Positions 2,682 to 17,066 of a stretch of DNA of 34,182 bases are shown here, piece after piece. A model generated the notes under the pieces. It was not told the origin of the DNA. It saw only the letters and a list, made by a program, of their open reading frames with translations, and did no database searches. This DNA comes from Dehalococcoidia bacterium (GTDB taxonomy: Bacteria; Chloroflexota; Dehalococcoidia; Tepidiformales; Tepidiformaceae), in assembly GCA_022827945.1 (NCBI GenBank), contig JAJEIT010000081.1, forward strand, positions 1 to 34,182. The letters are read 5' to 3'. The translations under genes and the position numbers were made by a program. The stretch's first letter is position 1; the number at the start of each line of letters is the position of its first letter.

Positions 2682-3316
2682 ACGCCGACGACCTGCACAC
2701 CATCAGCGCCGGGGGCTTCTCCGCCACGGCCGACGCCTTCGCCCGGGACCCCGAGTCGGGGGGACTGTGGTTCCTCTCCATGGTGGGCTCCCAGACCGCC
2801 CTCAAGGCGATCTGGGCTTCCCTCCTCAAGCAGCCGCCCGGACCCGCCCACCTCATCCGGGGAGCGGACGGCATGGCCCTCTCCGGCGGCTACCAGCGCT
2901 GCCACGTCCCCCGCGAGACGGTCGGCACATGGACGACCAAGATCGCCCGCCTGCCCGTCTGCGGCGGCTGGCATGGGCTCGTCTACACGAAGCTGGCGGA
3001 GTACGCCTTCGAGCGTGACGCCTTCCTGCTGCTCGCACCGAGCGAGGAGGAGGCGCCTGCTCTCCATCACCGCTTCCTCGACAAGCGCAGCCCCCTGCCG
3101 TTGCACCGCTCCTGGGCGGACTGGCTCTGGCGGCGGTCGCTGGCGAAGGGGGAGACCGTTCCCCTCCAGTCGGAGGGCGTCGTCGCCTACCGCTGCGACC
3201 CTGACGCGGAGTCACTGAGGGAAGACCTCTCGGTGGCTGTCGCCTCGGGGCTGCTCACCCTCCCACGGGAGGAGCCATTCTCACCGACCACCTACCGGAA
3301 AGGAGACACGTCATGA
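2678..3316 (+). CDS. Hypothetical protein, operon-linked to the methyltransferase
   Basis: This 212-aa soluble protein is read from GTG 2678, overlapping the upstream stop by 4 nt. It also overlaps the ATG of the methyltransferase gene by 4 nt, so three genes are translationally coupled. The sequence has several Trp residues and the segment H-R-S-W-A-D-W-L-W-R-R-S, but no motif that I can tie to a known family. There is no signal peptide or transmembrane segment. Position suggests that it works with the following DNA methyltransferase or the helicase further down, perhaps as a specificity or structural partner. That is inference only. Confidence 0.65.
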   Translation: MNADDLHTISAGGFSATADAFARDPESGGLWFLSMVGSQTALKAIWASLLKQPPGPAHLIRGADGMALSGGYQRCHVPRETVGTWTTKIARLPVCGGWHGLVYTKLAEYAFERDAFLLLAPSEEEAPALHHRFLDKRSPLPLHRSWADWLWRRSLAKGETVPLQSEGVVAYRCDPDAESLREDLSVAVASGLLTLPREEPFSPTTYRKGDTS

Positions 3317-4350
3317 GACTGGCCGCACAGGCGAAGGGAGGGTTTTACCCGACGCCGCCACGAGTCACCGACCTGATCGCGGAGCTCATCCAGCCCCCCG
3401 CCGGCTACGCCCGCGACGACGAGACGCTCCGCATCCTCGACCCCTGCTGCGGTGAAGGGACGGCCCTGGCCGGGTTGGCGGACGCCCTGAGGAAGCCGCA
3501 CGCCGCGGACGTGGAGACGTTCGGGGTGGAGCTTCACAGCGAGCGCGCGGAGGAGGCGAAGGCTCGCCTCGACCACGTGCTCGGGACGGACCTCTTCCAG
3601 ACCTCGATCGCCAACGGCGCCTTCGGGCTCCTCTACCTCAACCCGCCCTACGATTTCGACTCGGGGGAGGAGAAGCGCGTCGAGCACAGCTTCCTCACCC
3701 ATTGCACGCGCTACCTGGCGGAGGACGGACTGCTCGTCCTCGTCGTGCCCCGCCACCGCCTCGCGGTCTCGGCCCGCTACCTGGCCTCGCACTACGCGCG
3801 GCTGGAGGGGTGGGCCTTCCCCGACCCGGAGCGCGAGGCCTACGACCAGGTCGTCGTCCTCGGCACACGCAAGGCCGACGTGTTCCACGAGGCCCATGCG
3901 GAGGAGCGCATCCAGCAGTGGGTCGCGGGGGACGTGGCGACGCTCACCCCTCGCCGCTACCCCCTCTACGTCGCGAAAGCGACGCCGGCGGGGGACGTGC
4001 TCTTCGCCAGGCGCTCCATCGACCCCGTCGCGGCCGCCTCCGAGGCGCGCGACTCGGGGCTCTGGGCCAGCACCGCCGTCACCGACCTGCTCTGGCCCGC
4101 GAAGGACCAGCGCACCAGGCCGCTCATGCCGCTCCGGCGCGGCCACCTAGCCATGCTCGTGGCGGCGGGCTTCCTCGACAACCTCCAATTGGAGGCCGAG
4201 GGCAGCCGCATCCTCGTCAAGGGGCGCACCTCGAAAGAAATGGTGCTGGCGGAGCGCACGCCCACGAAGGAGACCTTCCGCGAACGGCTCTCCACCACCG
4301 TCGTCGCCCTCGACCTGGACTCCGGCCAGGTCACCGACATCGCCGCTTAG
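3313..4350 (+). CDS. N6-adenine-type DNA methyltransferase (DUF6094-like)
   Basis: This 345-aa class I SAM-dependent methyltransferase has the SAM-binding motif I, D-P-C-C-G-E-G-T, at residues 43-50, preceded by F-Y-P-T-P-P near residue 11. The acidic strand F-G-V-E-L follows near residue 70. The catalytic motif IV N-P-P-Y is at 110-113, which marks modification of an exocyclic amino group, most often N6 of adenine. The Rossmann domain spans about 1-220; the remaining ~125 residues carry no familiar domain and may help bind DNA. The arrangement with a downstream SF2 helicase that has a zinc ribbon is common on actinobacterial and proteobacterial integrative elements. Whether it protects element DNA or modifies host DNA is not evident. 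ATG 3313 overlaps the upstream gene in an ATGA junction, with GGAAAGGAG as the RBS. Confidence 0.85.
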   Translation: MRLAAQAKGGFYPTPPRVTDLIAELIQPPAGYARDDETLRILDPCCGEGTALAGLADALRKPHAADVETFGVELHSERAEEAKARLDHVLGTDLFQTSIANGAFGLLYLNPPYDFDSGEEKRVEHSFLTHCTRYLAEDGLLVLVVPRHRLAVSARYLASHYARLEGWAFPDPEREAYDQVVVLGTRKADVFHEAHAEERIQQWVAGDVATLTPRRYPLYVAKATPAGDVLFARRSIDPVAAASEARDSGLWASTAVTDLLWPAKDQRTRPLMPLRRGHLAMLVAAGFLDNLQLEAEGSRILVKGRTSKEMVLAERTPTKETFRERLSTTVVALDLDSGQVTDIAA

Positions 4351-4607: not shown

Positions 4608-4833
4608 ATGGACCTCAGCGAGTTCATCGACACCTACCGGGACGCCATCGCCCAGCGCGTCGTCGAGTCCTACCCGCCCCGCTACCGGCCCTCCGAGAAC
4701 GGACGCGCGCTTCCGGCTCTCCTCAGGACTCCCCTGGGGGCGCAGGCGGACGCCATCCGCGGCGCCGCCCTCTCCCTCGAGACCCACCGCGGCACCACCG
4801 TCGTGGGCGAGATGGGGACCGGCAAGACCTTCA
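4608..4833 (+). CDS. SF2 helicase, exon 1 (split by group II intron)
   Basis: This exon encodes residues 1-75 plus the first base of codon 76 of an SF2 helicase. It starts at ATG 4608 behind GGAGAAGGAGA. It contains Q-A-D-A-I-R-G-A (a Q-motif-like segment) and the Walker A motif G-E-M-G-T-G-K-T at residues 67-74. The group II intron begins at G4834. Without splicing the frame runs into a stop at 4854, giving an 82-aa dead-end peptide. Joining A4833 to T7670 gives codon ATC (Ile76) and continues in frame as G-K-T-F-I-G-A-S-A-A-H-L-A-G-F. The joined product is 568 aa. Function of the whole protein is described under exon 2. Confidence 0.85.
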
Positions 4834-5099
4834 GTGCGCCGCGTAACGCGGCATAGGATACCCGGCTCAGTCGGGAAGAACTCGGAGTAAGTTCTTGGGC
4901 CAACCAACCCACCCCGAAGCGAAAGCCGAGGGGGACAACAGCATGTCGGTAAGAGCGGCTACAGCCCGAAAGCGTTGTAGGACTGGTTCCGCAAGGCCCG
5001 CGCGATACGGTGAAAGCTTGATTGCCTGAACCCCAGTTCCCACGTGGTGTTATTGCCACCCGCCGGTAGAACGCTTGCAACCCGGCGCCGCCCATTGCA

Positions 5100-5120
5100 C
5101 TGGTCTGATGAAGGGACCAG
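5100..5120 (+). other. Group II intron EBS1 hairpin
   Basis: A stem ctggtc / gaccag displays the loop tgatgaagg. TGAAGG (5109-5114) pairs over six bases with CCTTCA at 4828-4833, the last six bases of exon 1. This is the expected target-recognition element of intron domain I and determines where the intron splices and homes. Confidence 0.75.
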
Positions 5121-5307
5121 CGCAACTCCGATGAGCGGACGATGACCAGTGTGGTCATCCAAGGGAACGAACGGGGCACCTAAGTCGCGCTAGAACGTCC
5201 TATGTCAACGGAACGCGGGATGGCCTACGGGGGGAGACCCCCATGGTCACGGAGTCCTCGTAGTAGTCCGAGCCGGGGAAAGCCCGGCACATGGCGAAGG
5301 AGGACAG

Positions 5308-7140
5308 GTGTCAACGACGAACAAACACAGAGAGGTATGCAGAATGCAAAACGCCGAAACTGTACTGAACGTCATACGCGAACGCGGAAAACGCGGACTG
5401 CCGCTGGAGAACATCTATCGGCTGCTCTACAACCGGAAACTGTACCTGCGGGCCTACGGGCGTATCTACTCAAACCAGGGAGCTACGACCAAAGGAACCA
5501 CCGCAGAGACCGTGGACGGTATGTCACTGGCGAAGATCGACCGCATCATCGAAGCCTTGCGCTACGAGCGGTTCAGATGGACGCCGGTGCGACGGGTCAA
5601 CATTCCCAAGCCTAACGGCAAGACCCGCGCCCTGGGCATACCGACGTGGACGGACAAGCTGCTGCAAGAGGTCATCCGGATGATTCTGGAAGCCTACTAC
5701 GAGCCGCAGTTTTCCGACCGCTCCCACGGCTTTCGGCCCGACCGGGGGTGCCACACCGCCTTGAGCAACGTGACCACCCACTGGACCGGTGTCCGCTGGT
5801 TCGTCGAGGGCGACATCAAAGGGTGCTTTGACAACATCGACCACGAAGTCCTGTTGTCGGTGCTCGGCGAGAAGCTCCACGACAACCGATTCCTACGCCT
5901 GCTGAGGTACCTACTGAAAGCAGGCTACGTGGAGGACTGGAGCTATGGCCGCACGCTGAGCGGGACACCGCAAGGCGGCATCGTCAGCCCCATCCTCGCC
6001 AACATCTACCTAGACCGGTTGGACAAGTTTGTCGAGAACGTGCTGATACCAGCCCACACCCGTGGCTCAGACCGGAGGGACAACCGCGAGTACACACGTT
6101 TGATGAACCAGGCGGCCCGCCGGAGGAAGCAGGGGAACCACGCCGAGGCACTGCAACTGCGCAAGCAGATGCGACAACTGCCGTCGCGTGACCCCTACGA
6201 CCCCGGCTACCGCCGGTTACGATACGTGCGCTACGCGGACGACTTCGTGCTGGGTTTCATCGGGCCAAAGGCCGAAGCCCAACAGGTAAGGGAGTCCCTG
6301 GAAACGTTCCTGCGCGATTCGCTCAAGCTGGAGCTATCCAGGGAGAAAACTCTCATCACCCACGCCACCAGCCAGGCGGCGCGGTTCCTCGGCTACGAAC
6401 TCGTGAACCAGCAGGCCAACGACCAAATCGACCGCAACGGTCGGCGCAGGGTCAACGGCCAAATTGGATTGCGAGTCCCCGCCGAAGTCATCGAACAACA
6501 TTGCCGAGCCTACATGCGCAAAGGCAAACCGGCACACCGCAACCATCTGATCCACGACGAGGACTACTCCATCGTGGGACAGTACCAGTCGGAGTTCCGG
6601 GGCGTCGTCAACTACTACCTTCTGGCCCACAACGTCTCCCATCTCGGGAAACTGCGAGCGGTCATGGAGCGGTCGCTGACAAGAACCCTTGCGGCAAAGC
6701 ACAAGTCCACCGCACGGAAGATACGACGCCGGTACAAAAGCGTCGTGGAAACCGAGCACGGACCACGCGTCTGCCTTCGGGTCATCAAGCAGCGGGATAA
6801 CGGCAAGCGCCCTCTCGTGGCGCAATTCGGTGGCATACCCCTGAAACGGCAACGGCAGGCCGTCCTAGTAGACCAACAGCCCCAACGGTACAGGAGTGAC
6901 CGCAACGAGCTCGTCAAACGGCTCGAAGCGGACGAGTGCGAGATGTGCGGCTCAACGGTGGACGTAGAAGTCCACCACATCCGCGCGCTTCGCGACCTGA
7001 ACGTGAAAGGCCAACGGGAAAAGCCCAGGTGGGTACAGCTCATGGCGGCGCGGAAACGCAAGACCCTCGTGGTCTGCCGGACGTGCCACAGGAGCATCCA
7101 CGCTGGGCGACCGCCGACGCAACACGCGTCAACAACCTAG
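5308..7140 (+). CDS. ltrA: Group II intron-encoded reverse transcriptase/maturase with HNH endonuclease
   Basis: This 610-aa protein starts at GTG 5308 behind AAGGAGGACAG. Reverse transcriptase motifs run from about residue 95 to 370: P-N-G-K-T-R-A-L-G-I-P near 102, S-H-G-F-R-P near 139, F-x-x-I-D-H near 174, P-Q-G-G-I-V-S-P near 221 and the catalytic Y-A-D-D at 309-312. The maturase (X) domain follows at roughly 390-500. The last ~70 residues form an HNH endonuclease with C-E-M-C near 544, H-H-I near 556 and C-R-T-C-H near 590. The protein helps the intron RNA fold and splice, nicks target DNA and copies the intron into it. RT, X and En domains all look intact, with no frameshift, so the element may still be mobile. 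Confidence 0.95.
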   Translation: MSTTNKHREVCRMQNAETVLNVIRERGKRGLPLENIYRLLYNRKLYLRAYGRIYSNQGATTKGTTAETVDGMSLAKIDRIIEALRYERFRWTPVRRVNIPKPNGKTRALGIPTWTDKLLQEVIRMILEAYYEPQFSDRSHGFRPDRGCHTALSNVTTHWTGVRWFVEGDIKGCFDNIDHEVLLSVLGEKLHDNRFLRLLRYLLKAGYVEDWSYGRTLSGTPQGGIVSPILANIYLDRLDKFVENVLIPAHTRGSDRRDNREYTRLMNQAARRRKQGNHAEALQLRKQMRQLPSRDPYDPGYRRLRYVRYADDFVLGFIGPKAEAQQVRESLETFLRDSLKLELSREKTLITHATSQAARFLGYELVNQQANDQIDRNGRRRVNGQIGLRVPAEVIEQHCRAYMRKGKPAHRNHLIHDEDYSIVGQYQSEFRGVVNYYLLAHNVSHLGKLRAVMERSLTRTLAAKHKSTARKIRRRYKSVVETEHGPRVCLRVIKQRDNGKRPLVAQFGGIPLKRQRQAVLVDQQPQRYRSDRNELVKRLEADECEMCGSTVDVEVHHIRALRDLNVKGQREKPRWVQLMAARKRKTLVVCRTCHRSIHAGRPPTQHASTT

Positions 7141-7214
7141 GAACGATTGACAGCGGGTAGGCTTCCTCGGTATCTGTACGATGACCGTCCAGACGCAAGG
7201 AGGAGTCACAACAG

Positions 7215-7463
7215 ATGGCATCTGACCATGCCGAACAGGGCCTACACCACCTACGTCTAGCCATGCTCGATGTACTCACCAGAGGTAAGTGCCTCGGTCC
7301 CACGGAGATAGGGCGACAAGCCGGTATCGAAAAGGGACTAGGCCACGGCTCGCGGTGGGGTTTCGTCATGACGGCCCTACTTGACCACATGGAAGAGCAG
7401 GGTCTCGTAGAACGGTGCACACAGTGGAACGGTCGCCCCGGATGGAGCGCGAAAGCGCGTTGA
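7215..7463 (+). CDS. Small winged-helix-like cargo protein inside the intron
   Basis: This 82-aa protein is encoded downstream of the maturase, still within intron domain IV. The ATG has a near-perfect Shine-Dalgarno AAGGAGGAG at 7197-7205, 9 nt upstream, which argues that it is translated. The sequence reads as a helix-turn-helix or winged helix: helix A-M-L-D-V-L near 16, P-T-E-I-G-R-Q-A-G-I near 29 as the putative turn and recognition helix, then L-L-D-H-M-E-E-Q-G-L-V-E-R, and a wing-like N-G-R-P-G-W at the end. Most group II introns encode only the RT protein. It might regulate intron expression or be an unrelated passenger. The fold call is from pattern only; no specific family is recognised. 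Confidence 0.65.
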   Translation: MASDHAEQGLHHLRLAMLDVLTRGKCLGPTEIGRQAGIEKGLGHGSRWGFVMTALLDHMEEQGLVERCTQWNGRPGWSAKAR

Positions 7464-7572
7464 GAAAAGGGGCTGCTACCGCCTTGAAGCCCGAAACCCC
7501 CTAGGTTGTGATACGCCCCGGTAGTGATTCCCTAACCGGAATACGTCAACACTATCGATACATGACACTGGA

Positions 7573-7606
7573 GAGCCGGATGCGGTGAAAGCCGCACGTC
7601 CGGTTC
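7573..7606 (+). ncRNA. Group II intron domain V (catalytic hairpin)
   Basis: A 34-nt hairpin begins gagccggatgcgg, continues with the GAAA loop and closes with ccgcacgtccggttc. It contains the AGC-type catalytic triad position at its base and the two-base bulge expected of domain V. Domain VI follows at about 7607-7669, built on the outer pairing ggccg / cggcc, with a probable branch-point adenosine in its 3' strand (ggtaactc). Confidence 0.93.
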
Positions 7607-7669
7607 GGAGGGGGGCCGACGGAAAAGTGCCCTGAGCAATCAGGGTAACTCGCCGGCGGCCTACCCTAC

Positions 7670-9150
7670 TCGGCGCGTCGGCGGCCCACCTGGCCGGCTT
7701 CCGCCGCGTCCTCGTCCTCTGCCCGCCCCACCTCACGCGCAAGTGGAAGCGCGAGGTGGAGGAGACGGTGCCGGAGGCTCGCGCCGTCATCGTCGCCTCC
7801 ATCACCGACCTCGAGCGGCTGCGCCTCTCCCACGGGCCGGGACCGCTCTTCGCGATCATGTCGCGCGAGCGCGCGAAGCTCTCCTACCGCTGGCTGCCCG
7901 CCGTCGTCGAGCGCTGGGCGACGGCCGACGGCAGGCTGGTCCGGGACGAGGAGACCTTCGAGCCCTTCCGCGTGCCCTGCTGCCCGGACTGCCACGCGCA
8001 GATCGTCGACAAGGACGGGGTGCCGCTCACGCAGCGGGATCTCGCCCGCAGGAAGCGCACCTGCGACGAGTGCGGCACGGCCCTCTGGCAGGCGGACCCC
8101 TCGGGGCCGAAGCGCTACCCCCTTGCCGACTACGTGAAGCACCACCTGCGGGGCTTCTTCGACCTGCTCGTCGGCGACGAGTGTCACGAGTACAAGGGAC
8201 GGGGCTCCGCCCAGGGCATCGCCGCCGGCGTCCTCGCCGACGCCTGCGGCAAGTCGCTTTCTCTCAGCGGGACCTTGATGGGTGGGTACTCCTCGACCCT
8301 CTTTCATCTCCTCTACCGGTTCTCGCCGGAGATCCGGGAGGAGTTCCGGCGGGGGGAGGAGACCCGCTGGATCGAGCGCTACGGCTTCGTCGAGCACACC
8401 ATCGGGCGCGACGATGGCATCGCCGAGGAGGACGGCCGCACGAGCCGCCGCAAGAAGTTCCGCAAGGTGGTGCGGGAGCGTCCGGGGCTCGCCCCCGCCG
8501 CCCTCTTCCACCTCATCGGGAATAGCATCTTCCTCCGGCTCTCGGACGTCGCCGCGGGGCTCCCACCCTATGAGGAGCGGGTGCTCCTCGCGGACATGGA
8601 GACCGAGGAGGACGGCACAGGCTTCTCCCAGCGGAGCGCCTACAACGAACTCTTCGGGACGCTGCGGGCAGCCCTCTCGGAGCTGCTGGCGAAGGGCTCG
8701 AAGCGGCTCCTCGCCACCTACCTGCAGACGCTCCTGGCCTACCCGGACGGCTGCACGCGCGGCGAGACGGTCTTCGACCCGGAGAGCGAGGAGTTGCTCG
8801 TGCAGGTGCCGCCCCTCTCGGAGGAGCGGCTCTACCCGAAGGAGCGCGCGCTCGTCGACCTCGTCGCCGCCGAGCGGCTGGCGGGACGCCGGGTCCTCGT
8901 CTACGCCACCCACACGGGAACGCGCGACATCACGGAACGGATGGAGTCCATCCTTGAACGCCACGGCTTCAGGGCCGCGGTGATGAAGGCGGACGCGGTG
9001 CCGCCGGAGCGCCGCGAGGCGTGGGTCGCGCAGCGCGTCGAGGAGGGCGTCGACGTGCTCGTCTGCCACCCCCGGCTCGTGCAGACGGGGCTCGACCTGG
9101 TGGAGTTCCCCACCATCTGCTGGTACGAGACGGAGTTATCGGTTTTCTAA
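7670..9150 (+). CDS. SF2 helicase, exon 2 (C-terminus truncated)
   Basis: This exon continues the helicase from codon 76, beginning with T7670. After splicing, V-L-V-L-C-P-P-H-L is motif Ia. A zinc ribbon C-P-D-C-H...C-D-E-C follows, then D-E-C-H-E-Y-K-G as the DExH box and S-L-S-G-T-L as motif III. The second RecA domain includes R-V-L-V-Y-A-T-H-T, V-L-V-C-H-P-R-L-V-Q-T-G-L-D-L and I-C-W-Y-E-T-E. Relatives carry on from here into the arginine-finger motif VI (Q-x-x-R-R-x-x-R-x-x-Q). Here the frame ends L-S-V-F-stop at 9150, so motif VI and the tail are missing and ATPase activity is probably lost. No other frame continues the homology. The break coincides with the start of the defence island. 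The helicase is linked to the upstream methyltransferase module. Confidence 0.85.
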
Positions 9151-9202
9151 TCCACACCAAACACTGCGCTACTCGTGGGAAGCCAGTCTGCCGGAGTGAT
9201 CA

Positions 9203-14327: not shown

Positions 14328-17033
14328 TCAGTCCTCCGAGATTAGCCGGCCGGCGAGCCACCGCCGAAAGTCGCCGCTCAGGTTCATGGCCACGAGCAGA
14401 TTCTGTCGCTGCATGGCTGGAATCGGTTGCCCGCTCAACCGATCGTTCGCTATCCGGCCAAGATGTTCAAGGAAGCCGCTGTCCACATCAAACTGCCATC
14501 CGATCTCGCTGAGCACCCCGGCGCTCGATGCGTCTCCCCATCCGAGCGTCTCAAGTAGCGCTCCCCGGACGCGCTGCCGGAGGCCGAAGTTCTCGAAGAC
14601 GGACGTGAGCAAGCGCGCTGTTGGCACCGGCGCGCGGAGAGCAGCGTCCGCGAGTCTCTCGATGGACTCCTCGCTCGTGTCGCGCAGAGCTTGGGCAAGG
14701 TGAGCGACGCACGTGCTGTCCGGTTCCCATCCGTTGAGCAGTTCGCGAACGACAGGAGCGAAATCGTCTGGCTCCGGCGACACTACAGAGAGCGCTCGCG
14801 CCTCTCTGAGGTTGAACAGCCAGGCGAGTGCGCCGGCGGGGTGCGCGTGCAGCGCGCCGCGTGCCCAACCGACATAGCCAGGCGAGAGCAACGGGGCCCG
14901 CGCATCTCGCACCAGCCCCATCAGGCGAACGGTGTCGTCGGCGGACTGAGGCAGGGCAGGAGGGCGCTGCCACCACGCTCCGATCCACTCCTCGCCGTAT
15001 ACGGTCACCAGTGCGTTCTCTGGAGACGCATCGAGCGCCCACGACCGCTCCCCCGTCGGGGTCGGCCGGGTGTTTTCAACAGCGCCGTCCCGATCGATCC
15101 CCCACACTTCGACCTCGGTGAGGTCGACTGGCTGCCGGAGAGTGACCAGAGCCGCGCCTTCGAAGTCGTCATCGTTCAGGTCGAGGATGACGCCACGAGA
15201 CGTGACGGCATCGGCCAGCAGCAGTTGACGGTCGGGCTCGCGATTGAACTGTCCGTCGGCGATGAGGAGCGGGGCGCCCCAAGCTCCCACCGAACCCCGG
15301 GCGCGACCGCGGCTGCCGATCCGTCCGATCGGACGGTTGCCGACCAGCAACATCGGCTCACGCCAGTTCGGCGCGAACGCGCGGATGCGGTGACCGAGGT
15401 CTCGCTCATCGATCACACCGACCGGAAACGAATCCCAGCCGCTCGGGCGAAGATGCTGAGCGCCGAACCAAGTAAGCGGAATGCGCCCTGACCTGACCTC
15501 GCGGTTTGCATCTCGAGTGCGTACGAGCACCGAGGGGCGGGCGACATGTGCTCTTGGAGAGAGAAGCGCGTCGACACTTCGGCCGTTCTGATCGAAGGGC
15601 ACTGCGAGCCGGTCGGCCTTCACCTCAGTGACCCGCTCCGGCAGGCCGAACAACTGAATCCTCGGTGCGTCGCCCAGCCTCGTGCCGGCGGGTGGAATGG
15701 ACAGCCCGGCGAGCGCCTTCTGGTCTCTGGTGGCTACGAGCGGATCCCAGATTCTCTCGCCCTCGAGGTACACGCTCGTGTCCTCGGTCCAGCCCGCCGG
15801 CAACCGGACCACTAGACACCCGTCCGCACGCGCCCATCGGTCCTGCGGTGGCTTGACATCAAGCCCGGGAGCGAGCACGAGCGTGTACGGCTGATTCGGG
15901 TGCAGCGCAGTGCTCCACGCGTCCAGCGGGAAGCCGTCCTCGCGAAAGGCGGCAACCTCGTCGGAGGGTTCCCACAGGACCACCTCTTCGCTGGCGACGG
16001 GTTCCCAGGAGTCCTCACCGTGGTGCTGTTCGACCGTGGCGGTAAGCCTGGCTGGCCAAAGCGGGAGCGCGATGGGGCGCAGGCCATGAGGCGTACCGAG
16101 GTCGTCGATCGTGAACTCCACGCTGGCGGCGCCGGTCCGCAACCGGTAGGCGCCCGGCTGCAACTCGCCAGCGACGTCGGCAAGGTTGACCAGTTCGGCG
16201 ATGAAACGCGGTTGCTGCCCATCCCACTCCAAGCGTGGAACGGTGAAGAGCGAAGGGGCGACATCTTCACCCGAGAATCCAGATGGGGTCAGCTCCATGC
16301 GCGCCACGGCTGCATCGAGTAGCGCGTCGGTCCAGTCCGGCAGAATCCATGGGCTTCCCGCGAGTACCTGGCGGGCTCGTAGGTCGGAGACGTTGCGACG
16401 GCGCACACCCATGAGGGTGTTCCACAGGGAAGCGAAGGTATCGGAACTCAGTCTCCGGTCGTGGAGCAGGTGGTGAACCGCCGTGGGCAGCGCTTCGGTA
16501 TTCGCGAGTCGAGCCGGCAGCCGCGACTCGATGGTCCGTTCCGTGAACCCGAACTGAAGGTAGACCGAGGCGTACCAGGCTTGCAGGCCCTCCTGCCCAA
16601 AGACGTGCCGCAACTTCCAGCGCCTGCACGCAGACTCCAGCGCGTCCTTGAGTGCCTGTTTCGGTTGCCCCTGACTGAAGAGCGCCGACGCAGCAGGGCT
16701 GGATAGCCGTCGCCTGACGGGGCCCCACACATGCCCCTCGGCCGCATCGCGCCGCGCTGTCTCCGCCGCGAGTACCAGGAAGACCAGCCCGAACGCCTGT
16801 TGGCGCGTGGCCTGCAAATCGCGCAAGAGTCGCCGGTCGGCGCTCCACCTCGCCGCTGCAGCGGACAGCCCGCCCGCCCACACGCGCAGCCACTCAACGT
16901 CCTCCGGCCCGAGACCGAGTTCGGCGGTTGAGCGCGGCGATGGCAGCCGGTCGAGCACGGCGGCGACAACTCCGGCAGCCCGCGCTGCCGAGTCAGGCTC
17001 GTTGGGATCGAGAAGCCGCAGCAGACTCGTCAC
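14328..17033 (-). CDS. Large protein of unknown fold, DruH-position partner of the helicase
   Basis: This protein of about 901 aa starts at GTG 17033 with a GGACGGGGG stretch 6 nt upstream; TTG 17039 is a possible alternative adding two residues. No catalytic motif, signal peptide or membrane segment is visible. The N-terminal ~300 residues look helical, with many Arg, Leu and Ala. The middle, about 300-650, alternates short hydrophobic stretches with Pro, Gly and Asp, suggesting beta-sandwich domains. The C-terminal third is helical again. The gene ends 1 nt before the helicase start, so the two are translationally coupled and presumably form one complex. The two-gene order, a large unknown protein and then a helicase-DUF1998, is that of type III Druantia (druH-druE), but I cannot confirm homology to DruH by eye. 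Confidence 0.75.
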   Translation of the reverse strand: MTSLLRLLDPNEPDSAARAAGVVAAVLDRLPSPRSTAELGLGPEDVEWLRVWAGGLSAAAARWSADRRLLRDLQATRQQAFGLVFLVLAAETARRDAAEGHVWGPVRRRLSSPAASALFSQGQPKQALKDALESACRRWKLRHVFGQEGLQAWYASVYLQFGFTERTIESRLPARLANTEALPTAVHHLLHDRRLSSDTFASLWNTLMGVRRRNVSDLRARQVLAGSPWILPDWTDALLDAAVARMELTPSGFSGEDVAPSLFTVPRLEWDGQQPRFIAELVNLADVAGELQPGAYRLRTGAASVEFTIDDLGTPHGLRPIALPLWPARLTATVEQHHGEDSWEPVASEEVVLWEPSDEVAAFREDGFPLDAWSTALHPNQPYTLVLAPGLDVKPPQDRWARADGCLVVRLPAGWTEDTSVYLEGERIWDPLVATRDQKALAGLSIPPAGTRLGDAPRIQLFGLPERVTEVKADRLAVPFDQNGRSVDALLSPRAHVARPSVLVRTRDANREVRSGRIPLTWFGAQHLRPSGWDSFPVGVIDERDLGHRIRAFAPNWREPMLLVGNRPIGRIGSRGRARGSVGAWGAPLLIADGQFNREPDRQLLLADAVTSRGVILDLNDDDFEGAALVTLRQPVDLTEVEVWGIDRDGAVENTRPTPTGERSWALDASPENALVTVYGEEWIGAWWQRPPALPQSADDTVRLMGLVRDARAPLLSPGYVGWARGALHAHPAGALAWLFNLREARALSVVSPEPDDFAPVVRELLNGWEPDSTCVAHLAQALRDTSEESIERLADAALRAPVPTARLLTSVFENFGLRQRVRGALLETLGWGDASSAGVLSEIGWQFDVDSGFLEHLGRIANDRLSGQPIPAMQRQNLLVAMNLSGDFRRWLAGRLISED

Positions 17034-17066
17034 TGGCAACCCCCGTCCGCCATGCCACTCGCACCC

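Follow-up and report, generated by a model that had tools for sequence, protein, structure and literature searches.

Ll.LtrB and Ef.PcfG occupy one conserved position of relaxase genes, and orthologous genes have been invaded at the same position (PMC5072309). In a phage, a DarB/SNF2 helicase gene is likewise known to house a group IIA intron (PMC12350094). Serine-integrase elements use the snf2 genes of Streptococcus ICEs as integration sites (PMC5357655, PMC12942858). Here we analyze a 34,182-nt stretch of DNA from a Dehalococcoidia bacterium (the window), which is the whole of contig C97 of a 2.85-Mb, 99-contig genome and in which a group II intron interrupts a helicase gene. We consider it probable that a mobile LtrA-type intron colonized this gene by reverse splicing, persists by clean splicing, and is now carried neutrally or selfishly in a truncated gene.

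A preliminary description of the window had proposed a group II intron with a canonical domain V, and the intron's anatomy confirms this. The complete element, of the LtrA type (IIA-like), lies at positions 4834 to 7669 of the forward strand, as do the features given below with window coordinates unless noted; it starts with GTGCG at 4834 and ends with CCCTAC at 7669, in agreement with the GUGYG start and AY end of group II introns. A covariance-model search matched Rfam RF00029 at 7571 to 7669 (68.1 bits; E = 1.5e-11), with the end of the match falling exactly on 7669. Both this match and the predicted fold place domains V and VI in that interval (folding z = -7.4): domain V has the AGC triad, a 2-nt bulge, and a GAAA loop, and domain VI has a bulged A7663, the predicted branch point, seven bases before the intron 3' end. 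When alternative 3' ends near 7669 were translated, some of them kept the frame downstream open as well; only 7669 coincides with the Rfam end and yields the residues found in intronless homologues.

An open reading frame inside domain IV (5308 to 7140, with ATG 5344 as a possible start) encodes a protein with reverse transcriptase (RVT_1, with YADD), maturase (Intron_maturas2), and HNH endonuclease domains, as identified by a Pfam-type domain search. Its best solved relative is LtrA (PDB 5g2x; phmmer E = 4.6e-129, residues 35 to 597), a near end-to-end match that would place the protein in the mitochondrial-like (LtrA) class. A trait of this class, the delta-delta' pair next to EBS1, is present as A5108-T7670. 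A search of the whole assembly returned no second copy of the intron. The intron is full-length and probably mobile.

Removing the intron joins A4833 to T7670 in phase 1 of codon 76, leaving an open frame of 568 amino acids with Ile76 at the junction. The 5' exon (4608 to 4833) encodes residues 1 to 75 and the first base of codon 76, running through Walker A (GEMGTGKTF), and the 3' exon (7670 to 9150) continues from codon 76 to residue 568 and the stop codon, ending before motif VI (RRSWRIGQ); both assignments come from the spliced frame and homologue alignments. Intronless homologues, the proposed check on this junction, read GKTFI(A/G)ASAAHL across it. One of them, a copy on contig C52 of the same assembly, is 95% identical to the window helicase and reads GKTFIAASAAHLAGF; the assembly may mix strains, and this copy may stem from another one. 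A second, G031_C2 in genome G031, has GKTFIGASAAHLAGF and there matches the spliced window protein at every residue, and the empty target GGCAAGACCTTCA is identical in two G031 copies. The predicted junction, Ile76, and the uninterrupted helicase sequence are thus borne out. So is the dependence of the helicase frame on splicing, given that translation of the unspliced mRNA stops after 82 amino acids. The frame is restored exactly, and splicing in the cell is likely to use the same junction. As for the claim that the insertion lies within the ATP-binding codons, the intron is next to the Walker A region, but codon 76 is two codons after Walker A Thr74, immediately downstream.

The guide sequences agree with these boundaries. 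Upstream of the intron, IBS2 (GGCAAGA, 4821 to 4827) is followed by IBS1 (CCTTCA, 4828 to 4833). As had been noted from inspection, IBS1 is fully complementary (6/6) to EBS1 (UGAAGG, 5109 to 5114), which the fold places at a hairpin loop directly after the delta base A5108; the EBS2 loop (UAUUGCC, 5051 to 5057) forms six of seven possible pairs with IBS2. For a set of eight related introns with clear boundaries, the observed score of own-site pairing was reached by 6 of 200,000 permutations for EBS1/IBS1 and by 3 of 200,000 for EBS2/IBS2, figures that are somewhat optimistic since the eight introns were picked after the alignment had been seen. Loci of the motif VI clade (see below), in which EBS1 has no convincing IBS1 partner in the alignment, were left out of the test. 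The delta pairing was found by inspection in seven of the eight, the exception being L070. Taken as a set, the eight introns have exon-binding loops that match their own sites better than those of the others, so that the intron boundaries rest on covariation. By these pairings, the intron would have entered the helicase gene just past the P-loop codons, through reverse splicing into the 13 nt of IBS2-IBS1 together with the delta base, and would persist through clean removal by splicing, assisted by its own maturase.

Next, we compared the insertion site with those of related introns. When genome and viral contigs were scanned, about 80 proteins related to that of the intron turned up, and their introns were spliced in silico to find the host genes. 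Many lie in frame in recognizable genes, namely, those for SSB, ClpP, relaxase, TraG/VirB4-like, VirD4-like, DUF6133, IS110 transposase, and ArdC-like proteins, of which the VirD4-like and ArdC-like hosts, lacking a Pfam hit, were named by eye. The relaxase insertion falls in a conserved His motif (HIHN^HFIINSVN). Within the helicase family of the window, an intron whose reverse transcriptase is 84% identical to the window's (L043, 1137 to 3543, Chloroflexi SB0666_bin_1) occupies motif II (DEVHEY^KGRG), and a diverged one (L170, 2081 to 4623; 37% identity) splits the same motif II tyrosine codon of another homologue. A third site lies before motif VI (EYSL^YTLWQ), where introns were found with both junctions visible in L050, L052, L054, L058, and L169 and with one junction side each in L049 and L060. 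Two further observations concern other host genes in Caldilineaceae. Related introns in ssb (L057, L059, and L070) interrupt GNLG(R/N)DPEMR^, with EBS1 and IBS1 changing together between L057 and L070. Another related group II intron (L048, 3502 to 5911, JAJDXQ010000015.1) interrupts a tRNA-Arg(CCT) gene within the anticodon stem; ARAGORN detects this tRNA only after in silico splicing.

The reverse transcriptase tree groups the motif VI introns with one another, and likewise those in SSB and those in ArdC; the window intron is nearest to L043, although the support for the two as sisters is weak (83/59). Introns of one clade thus mostly keep a site, presumably through retrohoming, while the closest relatives of the window intron occupy different sites. 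Of 38 genomes of the order, none but this one yielded the window intron; the closest relative in the others, in G031, shares 65% identity with it and lies in another place. Since relatives repeatedly occupy motifs of the same helicase family and other mobile-element genes, the window site is ordinary. The preliminary description had regarded the place of insertion as noteworthy; that it is exceptional is not supported, given the in-frame introns in conserved motifs (II and VI) of the same family and in genes for SSB, ClpP, VirB4/VirD4-like, relaxase, and IS110 proteins. In the light of the published cases (PMC5072309, PMC12350094), its premise that bacterial group II introns more often avoid conserved coding sequence holds on average but breaks down for this lineage where the host is a mobile-element gene. 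In-frame insertion into conserved motifs of such genes is a habit of the lineage, as with Ll.LtrB.

The insertion could instead be a lone accident, with no targeting habit of the intron family behind it. The window intron is the only one found at the Walker A site. Further, the three helicase sites rank at the 74th, 92nd, and 88th percentiles of alignment conservation (joint P of about 0.02), which is above average but not extreme, so that strong statistical enrichment of these sites for conservation was not found. The repeated hits on the same helicase family and on conserved motifs of other mobile-element genes, together with the clustering of site labels by clade, make an accident very unlikely. 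In the reading we prefer, the window intron would be one of several independent colonizations of a mobile-element helicase family by the same lineage, and conserved motifs would be favored as targets because their DNA recurs in homologues.

The helicase itself belongs to a mobile-element setting. Upstream of it lies a DUF6094 methyltransferase gene (3313 to 4350), identified by domain search and counted with the mobile-element module, and plasmids of Thermus and others carry relatives of the helicase, with some 43 to 44% identity for the best of them. The spliced SNF2-like protein has motifs I and II and lacks motif VI. As proposed, the gene is truncated: it is cut at 9147 after YETELSVF, with loss of motif VI and the C terminus, by the terminus of an inserted element (TTATCGGTTTTCTAATCCACACCAAACACTGCGCTACTCGTGGG, 9136 to 9179). 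Three helicase copies in genome G034 (C59, C49, and C39) end at the same place with the same ~40-nt terminus, making four copies with that of the window. In G030 (C2) and G034, separate C-terminal parts of the helicase start close to the corresponding point, and two of them follow a serine-recombinase-like tail, recognized by eye. No intact serine integrase was found next to the truncated helicase fragments; recombinases are common in these genomes. The point before motif VI looks like a recurrent integration site, and the element inserted there would have taken away the C terminus of the window copy.

Other features were also noted. In the window, a defence-like island with a DruE-like helicase, cytosine methyltransferases, and an REase-like protein lies 3' of the truncation, and beside the DruE-like gene a 903-aa protein without a Pfam or PADLOC match is encoded on the minus strand (14328 to 17039). 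On contig C75 of the same genome (G000, about 72447 to 75929; L171), about 3.4 kb separate a decayed copy of the element terminus from a short remnant of helicase motif VI.

The exons of the window gene have no stop codons and a dN/dS of 0.09 to 0.18, and the damage to the helicase therefore looks recent. Since motif VI and the C terminus are missing, splicing would rescue only a probably inactive protein; the spliced product should be without ATPase and helicase activity, and with or without splicing of the intron, the helicase is probably inactive. The intron would thus be carried neutrally or selfishly. An earlier suggestion, that the insertion may be neutral because the helicase was already truncated, agrees with this in that the truncation is real and compatible with neutrality; the word "already" is not secured, as intron and truncation may have arrived in either order.

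The window intron differs from its relatives between the maturase gene and domain V. This distance (7141 to 7570) is 433 nt in the window, compared with a median of 30 nt and a maximum of 61 nt in 44 related introns. Such an expansion raises the possibility of a dead intron, in which the extra 433 nt, where about 30 are usual, or unseen lesions in domains I to IV ended splicing and left the helicase doubly inactivated. Extra DNA of this length could impair splicing, and truncation of the host gene would have removed selection for it. Domains V and VI, the EBS/IBS pairs, and the protein motifs are intact, however, and domain IV, the location of the extra DNA, normally tolerates open reading frames. 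We therefore regard loss of splicing as unlikely, and retain the reading of an intron that probably still splices.

Within the extra stretch, a small open reading frame (7215 to 7463), behind AAGGAGGAG, encodes an 82-aa winged-helix-like protein with a weak MarR match. It is not a usual part of these introns, being absent from the 44 relatives. Free-standing homologues occur in two other Chloroflexota, and no Rfam intron match was found in the 3.2 kb around each. Searches for its family gave no Pfam match over threshold and turned up no relative among PHROGs, plasmids, or phages. This frame is most simply read as a passenger gene.

The preliminary description had also suggested that the intron may control the module. 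In such a scheme, conditional splicing would switch the helicase module, with the intron-borne winged-helix protein as part of the control. The 82-aa stub made from unspliced mRNA and the good Shine-Dalgarno sequence of the extra frame would suit it, and in Lactococcus, Ll.LtrB does retarget spliced mRNA and so lowers expression of the relaxase gene that hosts it (PMC6003770). Nevertheless, intronless helicase homologues are common in the order, in which the intron was found only here, the spliced protein has neither motif VI nor the C terminus, and the extra frame is unique among 45 related introns. Regulation by the intron is hardly credible on this evidence, and neutral or selfish carriage remains our preferred account.

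The window intron adds a member to a known type, at a site that is itself ordinary. Intron-plus and intron-minus forms of the same gene, with three motifs occupied, make a natural set in which to ask what brings mobile introns into conserved catalytic motifs of mobile-element genes and how their targets change; the window also supplies an example of a maturase intron with a possible passenger gene. Inteins favor P-loops. As a tentative extension, doubtful as a whole, LtrA-type introns of Chloroflexota might similarly find a lasting reservoir in the ATPase motifs of one mobile-element helicase family, shifting among motifs I, II, and VI by retuning EBS1 and EBS2, and the gene carried by the window intron might be acquired regulatory cargo.

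In comparison with known systems, the truncation at 9136 to 9147 resembles the situation in Streptococcus ICEs, where a mobile-element SNF2 helicase gene is also split site-specifically by other mobile elements. It differs in its evidence, which consists of a shared terminus and, at two separate C-terminal fragments only, a serine-recombinase-like tail seen by eye; no integrase was identified for the window's element. The L043 intron, the nearest relative, differs in its motif II site, in a helicase frame that runs on through motif VI after splicing, and in having no extra open reading frame. Like the window intron, the phage DarB/SNF2 intron is a group IIA intron in an SNF2-type helicase gene, and it has a near-identical counterpart in a bacterial helicase of remote homology; helicase family and host phylum differ, and the comparison is one at the level of the gene. 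With respect to Ll.LtrB and Ef.PcfG, the window differs in its host, a truncated SNF2-like helicase, and in the extra winged-helix-like frame in domain IV; it shares with them an LtrA-like protein (over residues 35 to 597), the HNH domain, the delta-delta' pairing, and an in-frame position at a conserved site of a mobile-element gene.
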